Positions 5,555 through 23,099 of a stretch of 28,088 nucleotides of DNA are shown here, piece after piece. The stretch lies in IMG/VR virus record IMGVR_UViG_3300021368_002387, positions 1-28,088 of that record; one strand, given 5' to 3'. Made by a program: the position numbers and the translations under genes. This DNA comes from a virus. The notes below the pieces were generated by a model that was not told the DNA's origin, did not search any database, and saw nothing but the letters and a program-made list of their open reading frames with translations. How positions within the stretch are numbered: the stretch's first letter is position 1; each line of letters starts with the position of its first letter.

Positions 5555-5714
5555 TAACGAAAAGTTATTACTTTTCTTTTTTCTTGCCGCGGGTATCGGT
5601 CACTTGATCGGTACCTACTACGGTAAAAGGAAAGGTATTGAGACCACGCTTGCGCTTCTGAGTGAAGATGAACTTGCAAACGTGGGAAAGAGGGTTGCAG
5701 AAAAAAATGAATGA
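5547..5714 (+). CDS. Small membrane protein with one N-terminal span
   Basis: Three ATGs in a row (5541, 5544, 5547) lie after GAGG (5537-5540). The last gives the best spacing and a sensible start, MSDNEK. The 55-residue product has a hydrophobic span at about residues 7-25 (LLLFFFLAAGIGHLIGTYY), a basic stop (GKRKG) and a soluble helical tail. It overlaps the previous gene by 8 bases. The basic residues after the span suggest that the C-terminus faces the cytoplasm. Function unknown. Confidence 0.6.
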   Translation: MSDNEKLLLFFFLAAGIGHLIGTYYGKRKGIETTLALLSEDELANVGKRVAEKNE

Positions 5715-6291
5715 GAAAGTTATTTTAACAGATTGTGACGGAGTTTTGCTAGATTGGGCATACTCTTTCGACCGATGGATGAACCGATTCGGTTATCGAA
5801 TACAAGATGATGAGGCCTATGATATCAGGGAACGATATGACCTTGGCATGGCCGACAAACAACGTCTTGTTCGAATGTTTAACGAGAGCGCCACGATTCG
5901 AAAGTTGCCGCCTCTGCGTGACGCAATTAAGTATGTAAAGAAATTGCATGAAGAGCATGGGTATGTCTTTCATGTCATCACCTCTCAGACAAATGATGAA
6001 TACGCCCAACACTTGCGAATCAAAAACCTTTGCGAATTGTTTGGTCCTTCAGTTTTTGAGAAATATGTGTTTCTAGATACCGGCGCCGACAAAAATGATG
6101 CTCTGACTGAATACGCAGGCACATACTGTTACTGGTTAGAAGACAAAATACAGAATGCTTACGTAGGTCAAAGTTTTGGCTTAGAATCTTTGTTGATGGA
6201 TCATCCATTCAATAAATGGGCACCAAATCTTGAAGACCGTCGAGTGAAAAACTGGAAAGAAATTTACGAACGAATTACTGGAGTAGAATAA
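5707..6291 (+). CDS. HAD-superfamily hydrolase / phosphatase
   Basis: From ATG 5707 the product is 194 residues. Motif I is D9-C-D11 in ILTDCDGVLLDW, giving the nucleophile and the acid/base Asp. Motif II is likely T92-S93 in FHVITSQTND, the motif III lysine is probably K129 (DTGADKNDAL), and motif IV is E145-D146 in YWLEDKIQNA. This set fits a small HAD phosphatase, possibly a 5'(3')-nucleotidase-like enzyme acting on nucleotides during phage growth. The substrate is not certain. An upstream in-frame start at 5662 would overlap the previous gene by more than 50 bases and is less likely. It is coupled to the next gene by TAATG. Confidence 0.75.
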   Translation: MNEKVILTDCDGVLLDWAYSFDRWMNRFGYRIQDDEAYDIRERYDLGMADKQRLVRMFNESATIRKLPPLRDAIKYVKKLHEEHGYVFHVITSQTNDEYAQHLRIKNLCELFGPSVFEKYVFLDTGADKNDALTEYAGTYCYWLEDKIQNAYVGQSFGLESLLMDHPFNKWAPNLEDRRVKNWKEIYERITGVE

Positions 6292-6542
6292 TGAATGAAA
6301 TGTTGAATGATCTTTTGAGTCAAGGTGTAGTTTATGTTCTTTTTGAGAAGTTAAACGGTGATATGCGTGAAATGCGTTGTACTACCGCGGTTGATTTGAT
6401 TCCAGAGGCCTCACGACCGAGTGAAGGTTCTACACGTAAGGCCTCAGAAGATACCCGTACAGTTTTTGATGTTGATATTCAGCAATGGCGCTCGTTTCGT
6501 TGGAACTCCGTCAAGGATTACGAATTGGTGGAGTATAAATAG
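6291..6542 (+). CDS. DUF2693-like SH3-type small protein
   Basis: An 83-residue protein with the order of elements typical of DUF2693-type phage proteins. A strand VVYVLFEKLNGDMREMRCTT leads to DLIPE, then a polar linker, then TVFDVDIQQWRSFRWNSV. In that family the WRSFR segment is the most conserved part. They are small SH3-like beta barrels found in many T4-like phages; their role is not established. It overlaps the HAD gene by one base (TAATG), and a T4-type late promoter box lies over its last codons. Confidence 0.65.
   Translation: MNEMLNDLLSQGVVYVLFEKLNGDMREMRCTTAVDLIPEASRPSEGSTRKASEDTRTVFDVDIQQWRSFRWNSVKDYELVEYK
6534..6541 (+). promoter_or_regulatory. T4-type late promoter (TATAAATA)
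   Basis: A perfect TATAAATA covers the last codons and stop of the DUF2693-like gene. In T4 this box, centred at -10, is recognised by gp55 with the sliding clamp and needs no -35. The start would fall near 6547, about 29 bases before the ATG at 6576. It points at the beta-domain protein and the tmRNA gene downstream. Confidence 0.7.
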
Positions 6543-6575: not shown

Positions 6576-7385
6576 ATGCCTTTATCTTTAACTGTACAGG
6601 TGCCGGAAGGTACAACACAAGTACAACTTACTGGTCCTTTCTGGATGTGGGAACCTAATGGTGGTCCTGTCGCTGTTGATAACGGCGATGGAACTTGGAC
6701 TGCAACCGTTGATCCTACTCCTGAAGTATCGATGCAATATTTGTGGGTATGTAACGGTGTACAAGAAAATTTGATTGGTCAAAAAACACCGGTCACTGAC
6801 GGTCGAAACTACGCAAATCGCATTTGGCGGCCGACTGAAGGAACTGAAGGACTGTCAACAGATATTTACGATGAGTATACTGGAGTAACTTGGGTACCTG
6901 TTGAAGATCCTGTGGATGCTGAAGCAAAAGCACAGGCCGCTGTTGAACGATCAGCTGCAATTTTAGACATGCAGAAGTCTCAACAACGAATGAAGATGCT
7001 TGAACAGGCCGAACGACTTATCAACCAGAACAACTCTGAGTATGCACGTGCCGCTGATCCAGAAACTTGCACACTGTGTTATATTCCAGTTACACTTGCA
7101 AACGTAAAAGCGAAAGCAGATGAATTGATGTTGTATGTTAATTCGGTTGATGTAGATCCTGTAACGCTTGATGCTTTGCCTGATCCTGATCCAAACGCAG
7201 ATGTTGCGGAAGATCAGACGCCTACGGTAGAAGCTGGACCGACTGAAGAAGAATTAGAAGCGGCCGCGGCTGAAGAAGCTGCAGCGGCAGATGCTGCAAG
7301 TGATGAAGTTGTTGTAGATGACACTTCTGACACCGGCGGCACCGGTCTGGCCGATGATGGCGAACCTTCTGCCAACACACCATAA
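6576..7385 (+). CDS. Phage protein with E-set/CBM48-like beta domain and acidic Ala-rich tail
   Basis: The ATG at 6576 lies 8 bases after GAGG and gives 269 residues. Residues 1-70 resemble an early-set or glycogen-binding type beta sandwich: VQLTGPFWMWEP, then DNGDGTWTATVDP, then MQYLWVCNG, the order seen in CBM48/AMPK-beta-type domains. Residues 115-190 form a helical, partly coiled-coil region. The last 70 residues are a low-complexity Asp/Glu/Ala tail ending in SDTGGTGLADDGEP. The late promoter directly upstream suggests a virion or assembly protein. Carbohydrate binding is possible but not shown. The tmRNA begins about 10 bases after the stop. Confidence 0.65.
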   Translation: MPLSLTVQVPEGTTQVQLTGPFWMWEPNGGPVAVDNGDGTWTATVDPTPEVSMQYLWVCNGVQENLIGQKTPVTDGRNYANRIWRPTEGTEGLSTDIYDEYTGVTWVPVEDPVDAEAKAQAAVERSAAILDMQKSQQRMKMLEQAERLINQNNSEYARAADPETCTLCYIPVTLANVKAKADELMLYVNSVDVDPVTLDALPDPDPNADVAEDQTPTVEAGPTEEELEAAAAEEAAAADAASDEVVVDDTSDTGGTGLADDGEPSANTP

Positions 7386-7446
7386 TTCGTTGATACATTA
7401 CAAATAGGAAGTGCGGACGCGGGTTCGAATCCCGCCGCCTCCACCA

Positions 7447-7518
7447 AAAGTAGTCTTATCACTGTTGACCGGTCCAGTCGCTCTGAGAAGGCATCACTGC
7501 GCTGAGACTACTTTTGAT
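7447..7518 (+). other. Intervening segment of the permuted tmRNA precursor
   Basis: This 72-base stretch joins the acceptor CCA end to the 5' end of the coding piece and must be removed to make a two-piece RNA. Its ends are complementary (AAAGTAGTCT against AGACTACTTT). They extend the acceptor helix to 21 paired positions, with one G-U pair and one C-A mismatch. The long helix should hold the precursor together and present both cut sites to tRNA-type processing enzymes. Confidence 0.8.
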
Positions 7519-7610
7519 GGGGGCGTTACGGAATCGACGGGCAACCGAAAGTAATGTGGAGAATCAGACGATGAACGCCGTCTGCAAAAACAGGGTTCAA
7601 ATCAATAGTT

Positions 7611-7655
7611 GCAAACGATGACAACTACTTCGGAGACGTAGCACTCGCTGCTTAA
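7611..7655 (+). other. tmRNA tag reading frame
   Basis: From the resume codon GCA at 7611 the frame reads ANDDNYFGDVALAA and stops at TAA 7653-7655. Tags begin AND/ANK in most bacteria and end in LAA or VAA for ClpXP/ClpAP recognition, so both ends are intact. The tag is longer than the E. coli one (ANDENYALAA) and shares its start and end. Products should be degraded by host proteases. Confidence 0.9.
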
Positions 7656-7668
7656 TCCCCGCGGGGCG

Positions 7669-7701
7669 GCCACTGCCTTGTTATCCAAGTGTGGCGTTTT
7701 T
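7669..7701 (+). terminator. Hairpin with T-run after the tmRNA
   Basis: GCCAC (7669-7673) pairs with GTGGC (7691-7695), and CTTG (7677-7680) with CAAG (7686-7689) inside. Five T follow at 7697-7701. It looks like a Rho-independent terminator ending the tmRNA precursor. It could instead be a 3' helix of the coding piece. No clear promoter separates it from the SleB gene, so read-through is likely. Confidence 0.6.
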
Positions 7702-7731
7702 ATTATGAAAGTAATAAACGAGGAGGCGCTT

Positions 7732-8229
7732 ATGTTTAAGCGAATGCTTGCGGTAATACTTTGTATGTTTTCAGTTGAAAGTTTTTCGTCTGAGAATTTT
7801 GAGTCAGAGATTATGTGTCTTGCGACAAATGTATATCATGAAGCAAGAGGTGAGGATTTCGTAGGTCAAGTTGCTGTTGCACATGTTACAATGAATCGTG
7901 TGAACAGCAAAAGATTTCCCGATAGTGTTTGTGGCGTTGTATATCAGGCAAGATATAGTGAGTGGTGGAAGAAACACCACAATAAAAATGTTCCTGTGAA
8001 GAATCAATGTCAATTTAGTTGGTACTGTGACGGCCGATCAGACGCAGTAAATGATACAGAACTTTTTCATGAATTATTAATACTGGCTATTCAGGTCTAC
8101 CATAAAATGATACCTGACAATACCGATGGTTCTCTGTTCTATCATTCACGCCGTGTCGAACCATATTGGGCTTCTAGTTACAATCAGTACGCTCACATAG
8201 GTAATCATATTTTTTATAATGAAAAATAA
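7732..8229 (+). CDS. SleB/CwlJ-type cell wall hydrolase
   Basis: The ATG at 7732 follows GAGGAGG and gives 165 residues. Earlier in-frame starts at 7678 and 7705 run through the tmRNA end and lack a ribosome site. A signal-like start (MFKRMLAVILCMFSVESFSS) is followed by the Hydrolase_2 core. This includes N-x-YHEARGE with the probable catalytic Glu37, QVAVAHVTMNRV, a Cys-rich mid-part (CQFSWYCDG), and FYHSRRVEPYWA near the end. Enzymes of this family cut peptidoglycan glycan strands. Length and layout are complete. With a signal sequence it would act in the periplasm, as an endolysin or late wall-remodelling enzyme. It overlaps the next gene by 11 bases. Confidence 0.85.
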   Translation: MFKRMLAVILCMFSVESFSSENFESEIMCLATNVYHEARGEDFVGQVAVAHVTMNRVNSKRFPDSVCGVVYQARYSEWWKKHHNKNVPVKNQCQFSWYCDGRSDAVNDTELFHELLILAIQVYHKMIPDNTDGSLFYHSRRVEPYWASSYNQYAHIGNHIFYNEK

Positions 8230-9801: not shown

Positions 9802-10074
9802 ATGTCAGAAGAGATTATGGAAGTAGAAGAACAAGATGATGGTTGGGAACCAAATCTTGAAGATGCACTTGAATCAACGTATGTGATACGAGATTTTCTT
9901 TTTCACTATATTCAGACAGCTGCGGCTGAAGAACAAGATGAAATAGTGAATGAACTCTCGGAACTTGACAATCGGTTGCACATAGTGTTATACTTCCTTG
10001 AAAAGGAAAACCAAAAACTTAATCATGGAGATGATGAAAATGAAAAAGAGGACTTACTCGGCGGAGACGGTTAA
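9802..10074 (+). CDS. Small acidic protein, unknown function
   Basis: The ATG at 9802 follows GGGAGAA and gives 90 residues; GTG 9799 is in frame before it. The protein is strongly acidic at both ends (SEEIMEVEEQDDGWEP; DENEKEDLLGGDG) with a helical centre (YVIRDFLFHYIQTAAAEEQ, LDNRLHIVLYFLEKENQKL). This pattern suits a small helical dimer. Its last 35 bases overlap the start of the isocitrate lyase gene, so the two should be translated together. No family is recognised. Confidence 0.6.
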   Translation: MSEEIMEVEEQDDGWEPNLEDALESTYVIRDFLFHYIQTAAAEEQDEIVNELSELDNRLHIVLYFLEKENQKLNHGDDENEKEDLLGGDG

Positions 10075-11281
10075 ATCTCTACAAGGTTCTGTTCAAATTG
10101 AACACACGCTTGCGAAACTGGGGGCAAGCAAGCTGCGTAAACTCTTTGAAGAAAACGACTACATCAACACATTTGGTGCGTATAATGGACAACAGGCTGT
10201 TCAACATGCTAAGGCCGGTCTCAAGGCGATATACCTTTCAGGATGGCAAGTCGCAGCTGCACATAACACTGCAATGGAAGTCTATCCGGATCAGTCTTTG
10301 TATCCTGTTAATTCTGTACCTGATGTGGTTCGTAGTATCAACAATGCATTTAGGCGTCAAGACCAAATCTCTGTCGCAAACGGAGAAGGAGGCTTTCCAT
10401 TTCTGCCTATCATCGCAGATGCAGAAGCTGGATTTGGAGGAGTCTTAAATGCTTATGAACTGGCAAGAAATCTTATTGAGGCGGGTGCGGCCGCTGTTCA
10501 CTTTGAAGATCAACTTTCTTCAGAAAAAAAGTGTGGACATTTGGGCGGAAAGGTTCTTATCCCTACTTCTCAAGCCATACGTAATCTTAACGCTGCTCGT
10601 CTTGCTTCTGATGTGGCTGGGACCGACACCGTTATTATTGCTCGCACTGATGCCGAAAGCGCTAAACTCATGGTCGGCAACACAGACATCATCGATAAGA
10701 AATACGTCAAGTACTATGGTGCCCAAGGAAGCGCAAGAATTCCCGGCAAAACTTCTGACGGATTCTATCAAATCGAAGAAGGAAAAGGCCTAGACTTTGG
10801 TTGTGAGCGTGGCGCTGCATATGCAGAGTATGCTGATCTAGTCTGGTGCGAAACTTCCAAACCTTGTCTCAAAGAAGCGAAACGATTTGCTGACGCGGTA
10901 CGTGGTTCTGTGCCTGACGCAATGCTCGCCTATAATTGTTCACCGTCATTTAACTGGCGCAAGTCAATTCCAGGTGATGCAGAACTCGCATCCTTCCAGC
11001 GTGATTTGGCTAAGTTAGGATTTAAGTTTCAGTTTATTACACTTGGGGGATTTCATTCCACTAATCATGCAGTATTCCAATTTGCTAAAGAATATAAAAA
11101 CTTTGGTATGCTGGCTTACAGCCGTCTACAAGAAGCCGAGTTTGCGGCAGAAACAGATGGTTATACAAGCACTAGACACCAAGCGGAGGTCGGAGTTGGA
11201 TACTTTGATAAAATCAGTGCGGCGTTGGGTTCAACGTCAACGCAAGCGCTGGCAGACTCAACAGAAGCAGAGCAATTCTAA
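10040..11281 (+). CDS. aceA: Isocitrate lyase (glyoxylate shunt)
   Basis: A complete 413-residue isocitrate lyase, close in length to E. coli AceA (434). Isocitrate is split to succinate and glyoxylate. Visible core: YSAETVKSLQGS at the start, GWQVAA, YPDQSLYP, Mg-site DAEAGFGG (127-134), HFEDQ (154-158), the catalytic loop KKCGH (163-167, Cys165), ARTDA (201-205), WCETS, and the substrate loop NCSPSFNW (299-306). FQFITLGG and a C-terminal TEAEQF like that of AceA are also present. KKCGH and full length separate it from methylisocitrate lyase. GGAG at 10027-10030 supports ATG 10040; starts at 9998 and 10025 would add only unrelated residues. Malate synthase is not in the window. All key residues are intact, so it should be active. 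Confidence 0.95.
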   Translation: MKKRTYSAETVKSLQGSVQIEHTLAKLGASKLRKLFEENDYINTFGAYNGQQAVQHAKAGLKAIYLSGWQVAAAHNTAMEVYPDQSLYPVNSVPDVVRSINNAFRRQDQISVANGEGGFPFLPIIADAEAGFGGVLNAYELARNLIEAGAAAVHFEDQLSSEKKCGHLGGKVLIPTSQAIRNLNAARLASDVAGTDTVIIARTDAESAKLMVGNTDIIDKKYVKYYGAQGSARIPGKTSDGFYQIEEGKGLDFGCERGAAYAEYADLVWCETSKPCLKEAKRFADAVRGSVPDAMLAYNCSPSFNWRKSIPGDAELASFQRDLAKLGFKFQFITLGGFHSTNHAVFQFAKEYKNFGMLAYSRLQEAEFAAETDGYTSTRHQAEVGVGYFDKISAALGSTSTQALADSTEAEQF

Positions 11282-21971: not shown

Positions 21972-23099
21972 ATGATATTAAATCATGGTGATGCTCAATA
22001 CGCGGCAAATATTTTTAAAGATTTTTTTGCCAACTTTGAACGTATTGATGACTACATGCGAGCAGTGAAGATGGAGAGGGTGTCTCAGATGTCGCCTTCT
22101 CTACCTGGTTTTGGTCCTGAGACTGACATGTTCGACAAGTTTGATATGCACCCAGAAGACATGGAAATTGTTCTCTGTGATGCACGCCAGTCTGACTTCA
22201 TGACTTATATGGAACTTGTAACGTCTGCGCCTGTTGAGTCTAGTATTCCCGGTAAACAGATGTTGCAGTTTGTAAAAGAAAAGAATACTGGCCTGTTACT
22301 TGGCATGATTCGTTTCGGATCACCGACTATCAATTCAAAACCTCGTAACGACTGGTTGGGAAAACCTCTCGACACGATGAACGCTGACATTATGAAGCGA
22401 TTCAACAATTCAGCGATCATGGGTTTCAACATTGTACCTACACAACCTTTCGGGTTCAATTATCTTGGTGGTAAACTGTTAGCAGCGATTTGTTGTACTC
22501 ATGAGATACGTGAGAAACTAAACGCCAAGTATGATGCGAATGTGTGCATGTTTGAAACGACCTCGTTATACGGTTCATCGAAGGCCGCATCACAATATGA
22601 TGGCATGAGGCCATTTCTGCGATTCAATGGTTTGACTGATTCTAATTTTGCGCCGTTGATTAATGACACGACCTTCCGCAGTTTGAACGATTGGTTCACC
22701 GAACGCAACGGTGAACCGCTTGTACCGTCTGATGCGTCTTCACGCAAACTGAAGACACAGACCAAGATGGTATCAATAATCAAAAAATCACTGAAAGAAC
22801 ACAGTGAAACAGAATACGAAAATTTTTGTAAAATATTTAAAGATGCTTTAGACTTGACTGAACGAAAAAGGTCCTTCTACTGCACTTATGGTTTTGACAA
22901 TGTTCCTCAGTATCTAAATATGGAGACTGATGAACTAGTCAGAAAAGATAACTTTGACCGTTTCTATCTTGAGTCGATCTTAGATTGGTGGCGCAAGAAG
23001 GCCGGCAAACGTTATGAGTCTCTTAAATCTGAGGGACGAATTAGAACTGTCGTTGAGACTTGGAATAATAACGCCGAGGACATCGACATTATACGATAA
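21972..23099 (+). CDS. DUF4338 / DruA-like protein
   Basis: The 375-residue protein starts 4 bases after uvsX. Its middle has the layout of DUF4338 proteins: GLLLGMIRFGSP and DWLGKP (about 107-131), ImGFNIVP (148-155), FNYLGGKLLAAIC (162-174), then VCMFETTSLYGSSKAASQYDG (191-211). In DUF4338 the similar blocks are a GxxxF region, a D-x-W-I/L-G, L-L-A, an E-T-x and a short Tyr/Gly part. DruA from the Druantia defence system belongs to this family. T4-like marine phages carry similar proteins next to uvsX and gp41. Here it may help replication rather than defence. The match is by eye only. Confidence 0.55.
   Translation: MILNHGDAQYAANIFKDFFANFERIDDYMRAVKMERVSQMSPSLPGFGPETDMFDKFDMHPEDMEIVLCDARQSDFMTYMELVTSAPVESSIPGKQMLQFVKEKNTGLLLGMIRFGSPTINSKPRNDWLGKPLDTMNADIMKRFNNSAIMGFNIVPTQPFGFNYLGGKLLAAICCTHEIREKLNAKYDANVCMFETTSLYGSSKAASQYDGMRPFLRFNGLTDSNFAPLINDTTFRSLNDWFTERNGEPLVPSDASSRKLKTQTKMVSIIKKSLKEHSETEYENFCKIFKDALDLTERKRSFYCTYGFDNVPQYLNMETDELVRKDNFDRFYLESILDWWRKKAGKRYESLKSEGRIRTVVETWNNNAEDIDIIR

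Follow-up and report, generated by a model that had tools for sequence, protein, structure and literature searches.

Genes and features of the locus

We identified in the window (the whole stretch of DNA analyzed, an IMG/VR record of 28,088 bases) genes encoding a T4-type DNA polymerase (gp43), UvsX and a DnaB-type helicase (gp41). The DNA polymerase shares no more than 47.5% identity with its top-listed matches, which come from marine cyanophages. Judged from its sequence, the region from 7385 to ~7702 (+ strand) is a complete circularly permuted (two-piece) gene of a T4-like phage for tmRNA, the RNA that releases stuck ribosomes. Its parts and neighbors are:

6534..6541, + strand: T4 late-promoter motif TATAAATA, upstream of the 269-aa protein gene that runs into the tmRNA
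6576..7385, + strand: gene for a 269-aa protein, the stop codon abutting the tmRNA 5' end
7385..7446, + strand: acceptor piece, from the outer P2 strand to CCA (start of the RF04321 match, sequence, P2 covariation)
7385-7388 and 7561-7564, + strand: outer P2 pairs, AUUC with GAAU (alignment with relatives)
7395-7401 and 7551-7557, + strand: P2, seven pairs, ACATTAC with GTAATGT (sequence)
7419-7435, + strand: T-arm, GCGGG (7419-7423) with CCCGC (7431-7435) (sequence)
7436-7442, + strand: acceptor 3' strand, CGCCTCC (sequence)
7443 and 7444-7446, + strand: A73 and CCA (sequence)
7447..7518, + strand: intervening segment (IVS) of 72 nt between the mature ends (fold)
7519..7702, + strand: coding piece, with GGGGGCG, D-region, P2 strand 7551-7557, PK1, tag and 3' domain (Rfam, ARAGORN, alignment)
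7519-7525, + strand: acceptor 5' strand, GGGGGCG (sequence)
7565-7599, + strand: PK1, stem A 7565-7570/7579-7584 and stem B 7572-7576/7595-7599
7611..7655, + strand: tag reading frame ANDDNYFGDVALAA and stop codon (7653-7655) (ARAGORN)
7656..7702, + strand: 3' domain, with G-rich strand, hairpin and T-run (alignment of relatives, fold)
7732..8229, + strand: cell wall hydrolase, endolysin-like (PF07486)

The 269-aa protein has no match in Pfam, in PHROG or in phages. Because the stop codon of its gene abuts the tmRNA 5' end, the two are likely to be cotranscribed. In four related loci (L017, L025, L026 and L033), a homologue of the hydrolase follows the tmRNA within 0.3 kb, and a homologue of the region 5662-6291 is kept upstream of the tmRNA in related contigs. 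A preliminary description of this DNA had placed the gene next to late T4-like genes; its neighbors in the window are replication genes and a lysis-type hydrolase rather than late structural genes.

The window also encodes a Zeta-toxin/AAA-like kinase (194-1039, + strand; phrog_5268), which has 65% identity in L017, and, between the UvsX and helicase genes, a protein similar to DruA of the Druantia defense system (21972-23099, + strand; PF14236, E 1.4e-9; full-length phrog_19197). A phage-encoded isocitrate lyase (10040-11281, + strand; PF00463, E 1.3e-86) has the KKCGH motif and no PHROG match. Its relatives occur in 151 viral stretches in IMG/VR, on contigs of up to 164 kb, which suggests that it is a widespread glyoxylate-shunt gene of these phages.

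Structure and limits of the tmRNA gene

A cmscan search matched the permuted tmRNA family (RF04321, tmRNA_permuted) to positions 7385-7655 with 103.9 bits (cut-off 47, E 1.5e-19), exceeding the gathering threshold and covering the whole model (1-213). ARAGORN also called a permuted tmRNA, with the tag ANDDNYFGDVALAA. The alphaproteobacterial model (RF01849, alpha_tmRNA) scored 57.1 bits (cut-off 50) over part of its length, and the tmRNA falls outside the bacterial clade in the tree described below; the betaproteobacterial model (RF01850, beta_tmRNA) scored 57.8 bits, below its cut-off of 84, and reaches 7702. The covariance search proposed in the preliminary description thus brought RF04321 and RF01849 over their cut-offs and left RF01850 under. 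Its core reading, a circularly permuted tmRNA in a T4-like phage, is borne out by Rfam and ARAGORN and by the T4-type gp43, UvsX and gp41.

The permuted order is evident in the sequence, where CCA (7444-7446) precedes the IVS (7447-7518) and the GGGGGCG that begins at 7519. The third acceptor pair, G7521 with T(U)7440, is the alanine-identity pair G3-U70. The resume codon GCA (7611-7613) lies 11 bases past PK1 and opens a tag frame with a hydrophobic AA end. Indeed, the acceptor stem, T-arm, P2, PK1 and tag start all lie where they had been described. The preliminary limits of 7395-7668 located the gene correctly but were slightly short, since conserved outer P2 pairs start it at 7385, and the 3' hairpin ends at 7695 and is followed by a T-run to ~7702, an estimate of the 3' end. 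Within the 3' domain, we propose that the G-rich strand 7663-7667 pairs with 7675-7679 as a pseudoknot. The hairpin (7669-7673/7691-7695) and the GTTTTT that follows it could mark the end of the transcript; a terminator scan called no intrinsic terminator 3' of the tmRNA, though the hairpin with GTTTTT is visible.

P2, the helix that joins the two pieces, is kept by compensatory changes in the sequences compared. In a fixed-register comparison of nine distinct relatives, P2 was paired in 52 of 54 cells, compared to a mean of 36.4 when the strands were dealt randomly (52 reached in none of 10,000 shuffles); the register was set by eye from the alignment of relatives, and kinship among the rows inflates such tests. 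Positions 3, 5 and 6 show three or four pair types among the nine sequences, with changes running in both directions. An automatic P2 search of relatives taken singly was not significant for some of them, and the fixed-register comparison is the stronger test.

A phage-only clade of permuted tmRNAs

A pattern scan recovered 38 viral stretches, nearly all of which have a permuted tmRNA. A strict signature was present in 20 viral contigs and absent from all 84,980 bacterial and archaeal genomes of a species collection. A maximum-likelihood tree of 56 tmRNAs places the window inside a phage-only clade of 20 (support 99/97) that is separate from 29 bacterial genes, another phage group and the tmRNA of the Methylophilales phage Melnitz. 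Two relatives, on contigs of 160 and 164 kb, combine the tmRNA with a homologue of the late sigma factor gp55 at ~50% identity. A nucleotide search of INPHARED phages with the window tmRNA returned no match at E 1e-5; matches at E up to 10 were confined to the T-arm and attributable to chance. In one relative (L036, 747-830), the tmRNA starts immediately after a tRNA-Met gene, and its 5' end may therefore come from tRNA 3' processing.

The preliminary description held that the gene points to the host lineage. This did not hold, as the alpha and beta models score alike (57.1 and 57.8 bits) and the tree places the tmRNA among phage genes. Neither the models nor the tree is decisive for the host, the tree having been built without verified betaproteobacterial genes (among 200 genomes searched with the beta model, none had a match above the cut-off).

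tmRNA genes are integration sites of many mobile elements, and this raises the alternative of host DNA on a phage contig, whether from bacterial contamination, misassembly or an integration-site remnant. No result of our analysis favors this alternative. The conserved neighbors in many independent contigs, the completeness of the gene, the phage-only clade, the absence of the strict signature from bacterial genomes and the tmRNAs on the 160-164 kb phage contigs refute it, and we consider its probability negligible. Rather than a recent capture from a host, the phage clade indicates a long-standing phage gene.

Association with a late-promoter motif

The distribution of ATAAATA suggests that the phage permuted tmRNAs often lie behind a late-promoter motif, although the motif alone does not show timing. 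Of 23 phage loci that are largely non-redundant, 12 have it close upstream of the RNA 5' end, starting 43-62 bases before the T-arm; shuffled upstream sequences gave a mean of 0.22 (maximum 3), and none of 27 alphaproteobacterial loci has it there. ATAAATA also precedes the tmRNAs on both large contigs (160 and 164 kb). In the window, the motif is absent beside the tmRNA; the nearest copy (6534..6541) is ~850 bases upstream, one gene away, so that a late transcript would reach the tmRNA only by reading through the 269-aa gene. The late motif was found twice in the window versus 0.93 expected in 28 kb, which is near chance and weak on its own. No gp55 gene was found on the window fragment.

Early expression, as proposed for phage Melnitz to recycle host proteins, is a less probable reading that still deserves weight. 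Upstream of the Melnitz tmRNA lies the sequence TTGACA-17-TATAAA, which its authors call an early promoter (PMC9004378). This sigma70-like site overlaps the late motif, and early expression is thus possible in that phage. However, the same site is also a perfect TATAAATA, and all 12 positive loci have the motif at a fixed distance. Furthermore, unscored inspection of the other 11 motif-positive loci revealed no -35 box as good as that of Melnitz. The late motif makes the timing testable and contrasts with the early expression proposed for Melnitz.

Exchange of the intervening segment

Together with the acceptor stem, the IVS of the window forms a single long helix (-43 kcal/mol, z -5.5), and none of 200 shuffles was as stable. 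In this helix, and in most of the phage clade, CCA lies opposite UGAU with one mismatch. The architecture is common to the other loci of the phage clade with an IVS of at least 55 nt. The IVSs of L173 and L179 (98-99 nt) have several internal hairpins and match no Rfam family besides tmRNA itself.

Sequence comparisons indicate that the IVS is exchanged as a module between phage tmRNA genes. For example, L024 and L096 are 96-100% identical in every part of the tmRNA and have unrelated IVSs of 55 or 20 nt, and L025 and L033 likewise combine 98-100% identical tmRNAs with unrelated IVSs. Conversely, the window and L025 share an identical block of 147 bases that includes the IVS, whereas their acceptor 5' parts are 72% and their coding parts 89% identical; the IVSs of L039 and L034 are 94% identical, their coding parts 56%. 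Among the loci compared, the window IVS recurred only in L025 and every IVS lay within a tmRNA gene, a pattern unlike that of a free mobile element. The simplest account would be homologous recombination in the conserved tRNA-like flanks.

These observations are consistent with a broader view, which we offer tentatively as having nearly as much in its favor as against it, that T4-like phages express their permuted tmRNAs as part of the late regulon, and that recombination swaps the discarded IVS (20 to ~100 nt, of several unrelated types) between tmRNA genes and keeps the mature RNA. Diversifying selection may then act on the IVS itself, or the IVS may have its own function. Both the late-motif association and the IVS exchange seem to be unreported; a literature search whose coverage left out most subscription journals found no paper on IVS exchange. 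The exchange provides a natural series in which the same mature RNA has different precursors, useful for studying how two-piece tmRNAs are processed.

Proposed function in trans-translation

From these features we infer that the tmRNA is expressed, processed and used for tagging. Very probably, the window encodes an intact two-piece tmRNA that would be transcribed late, processed and active in trans-translation with host SmpB. Late in infection, the gene would be transcribed by the RNA polymerase of the host, directed by the phage sigma factor gp55. RNase P would cut before G7519 and 3' processing would free the CCA at 7446, removing the 72-nt IVS and leaving two pieces that the acceptor stem and P2 hold together. 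The RNA would be charged with alanine by the alanyl-tRNA synthetase of the host through G3-U70, and host SmpB would deliver it to stalled ribosomes. The ANDDNYFGDVALAA tag would then direct the products to ClpXP-type proteases. Such activity could keep ribosomes free when stop codons are missing from phage late mRNAs and from decaying host mRNAs. We found no SmpB on 36 viral records (the window included) or on seven more that include the 160- and 164-kb contigs, in a search that was positive for control genomes. Host SmpB is therefore presumably used, although the window and most relatives are fragments whose missing parts could carry the gene.

The negative SmpB search would also suit a decoy or regulator that dampens trans-translation in the host, its tRNA-like part capturing the SmpB or alanyl-tRNA synthetase of the host and its tag going unused. 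In E. coli, tmRNA is inhibited by a tmRNA-like part on its own (PMC4131195, PMC11915505), and a dampening role is reported for the tag-less form of phage DS6A. Yet nearly all relatives retain the tag frame, the resume context and an LAA-type end, and PK1 and the 3' domain are conserved as well. None of these would be needed by a decoy, which makes this role unlikely.

Comparison with known tmRNAs

The preliminary description named no described example of such a gene next to late T4-like genes, but the two-piece tmRNA of phage Melnitz was reported in 2022. The same study counted tmRNA genes in 402 phages, with 133 unique, and ARAGORN predicted 53 of these to be two-piece, mostly in aquatic phages (PMC9004378). 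A 2025 tmRNA database holds 79 bacteriophage sequences (PMC11915505). Phage-encoded permuted tmRNA is thus already known and the window is a further example, extending it to another, apparently uncultured T4-like lineage.

Like the window, Melnitz (MZ577097) is a marine T4-like myophage with a permuted tmRNA gene (RF04321, 113.4 bits; tag ANDNYVPVDYALAA). Unlike the window, it occupies another branch of the tree and has a 142-nt IVS, a clear alpha_tmRNA match (106.7 bits) and other neighbors. It has TATAAATA directly upstream of the tmRNA, as TTGACA-17-TATAAATA (L072, 45990-46450), whereas the window has it one gene further upstream. A glutamine riboswitch lies directly downstream of the Melnitz tmRNA; cmscan found none in the window. 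The tmRNAs of Bxz1-type mycobacteriophages and Bacillus phage G are also phage-encoded but are made in one piece from genes of standard order (PMC4131195). The window shares its gene order, acceptor stem, T-arm, P2 and tag context with the permuted families RF04321, RF01849, RF01850 and cyanobacterial RF01851, and its RF04321 score (103.9 bits) is lower than those of the best-listed alphaproteobacterial genes (~127-166 bits).
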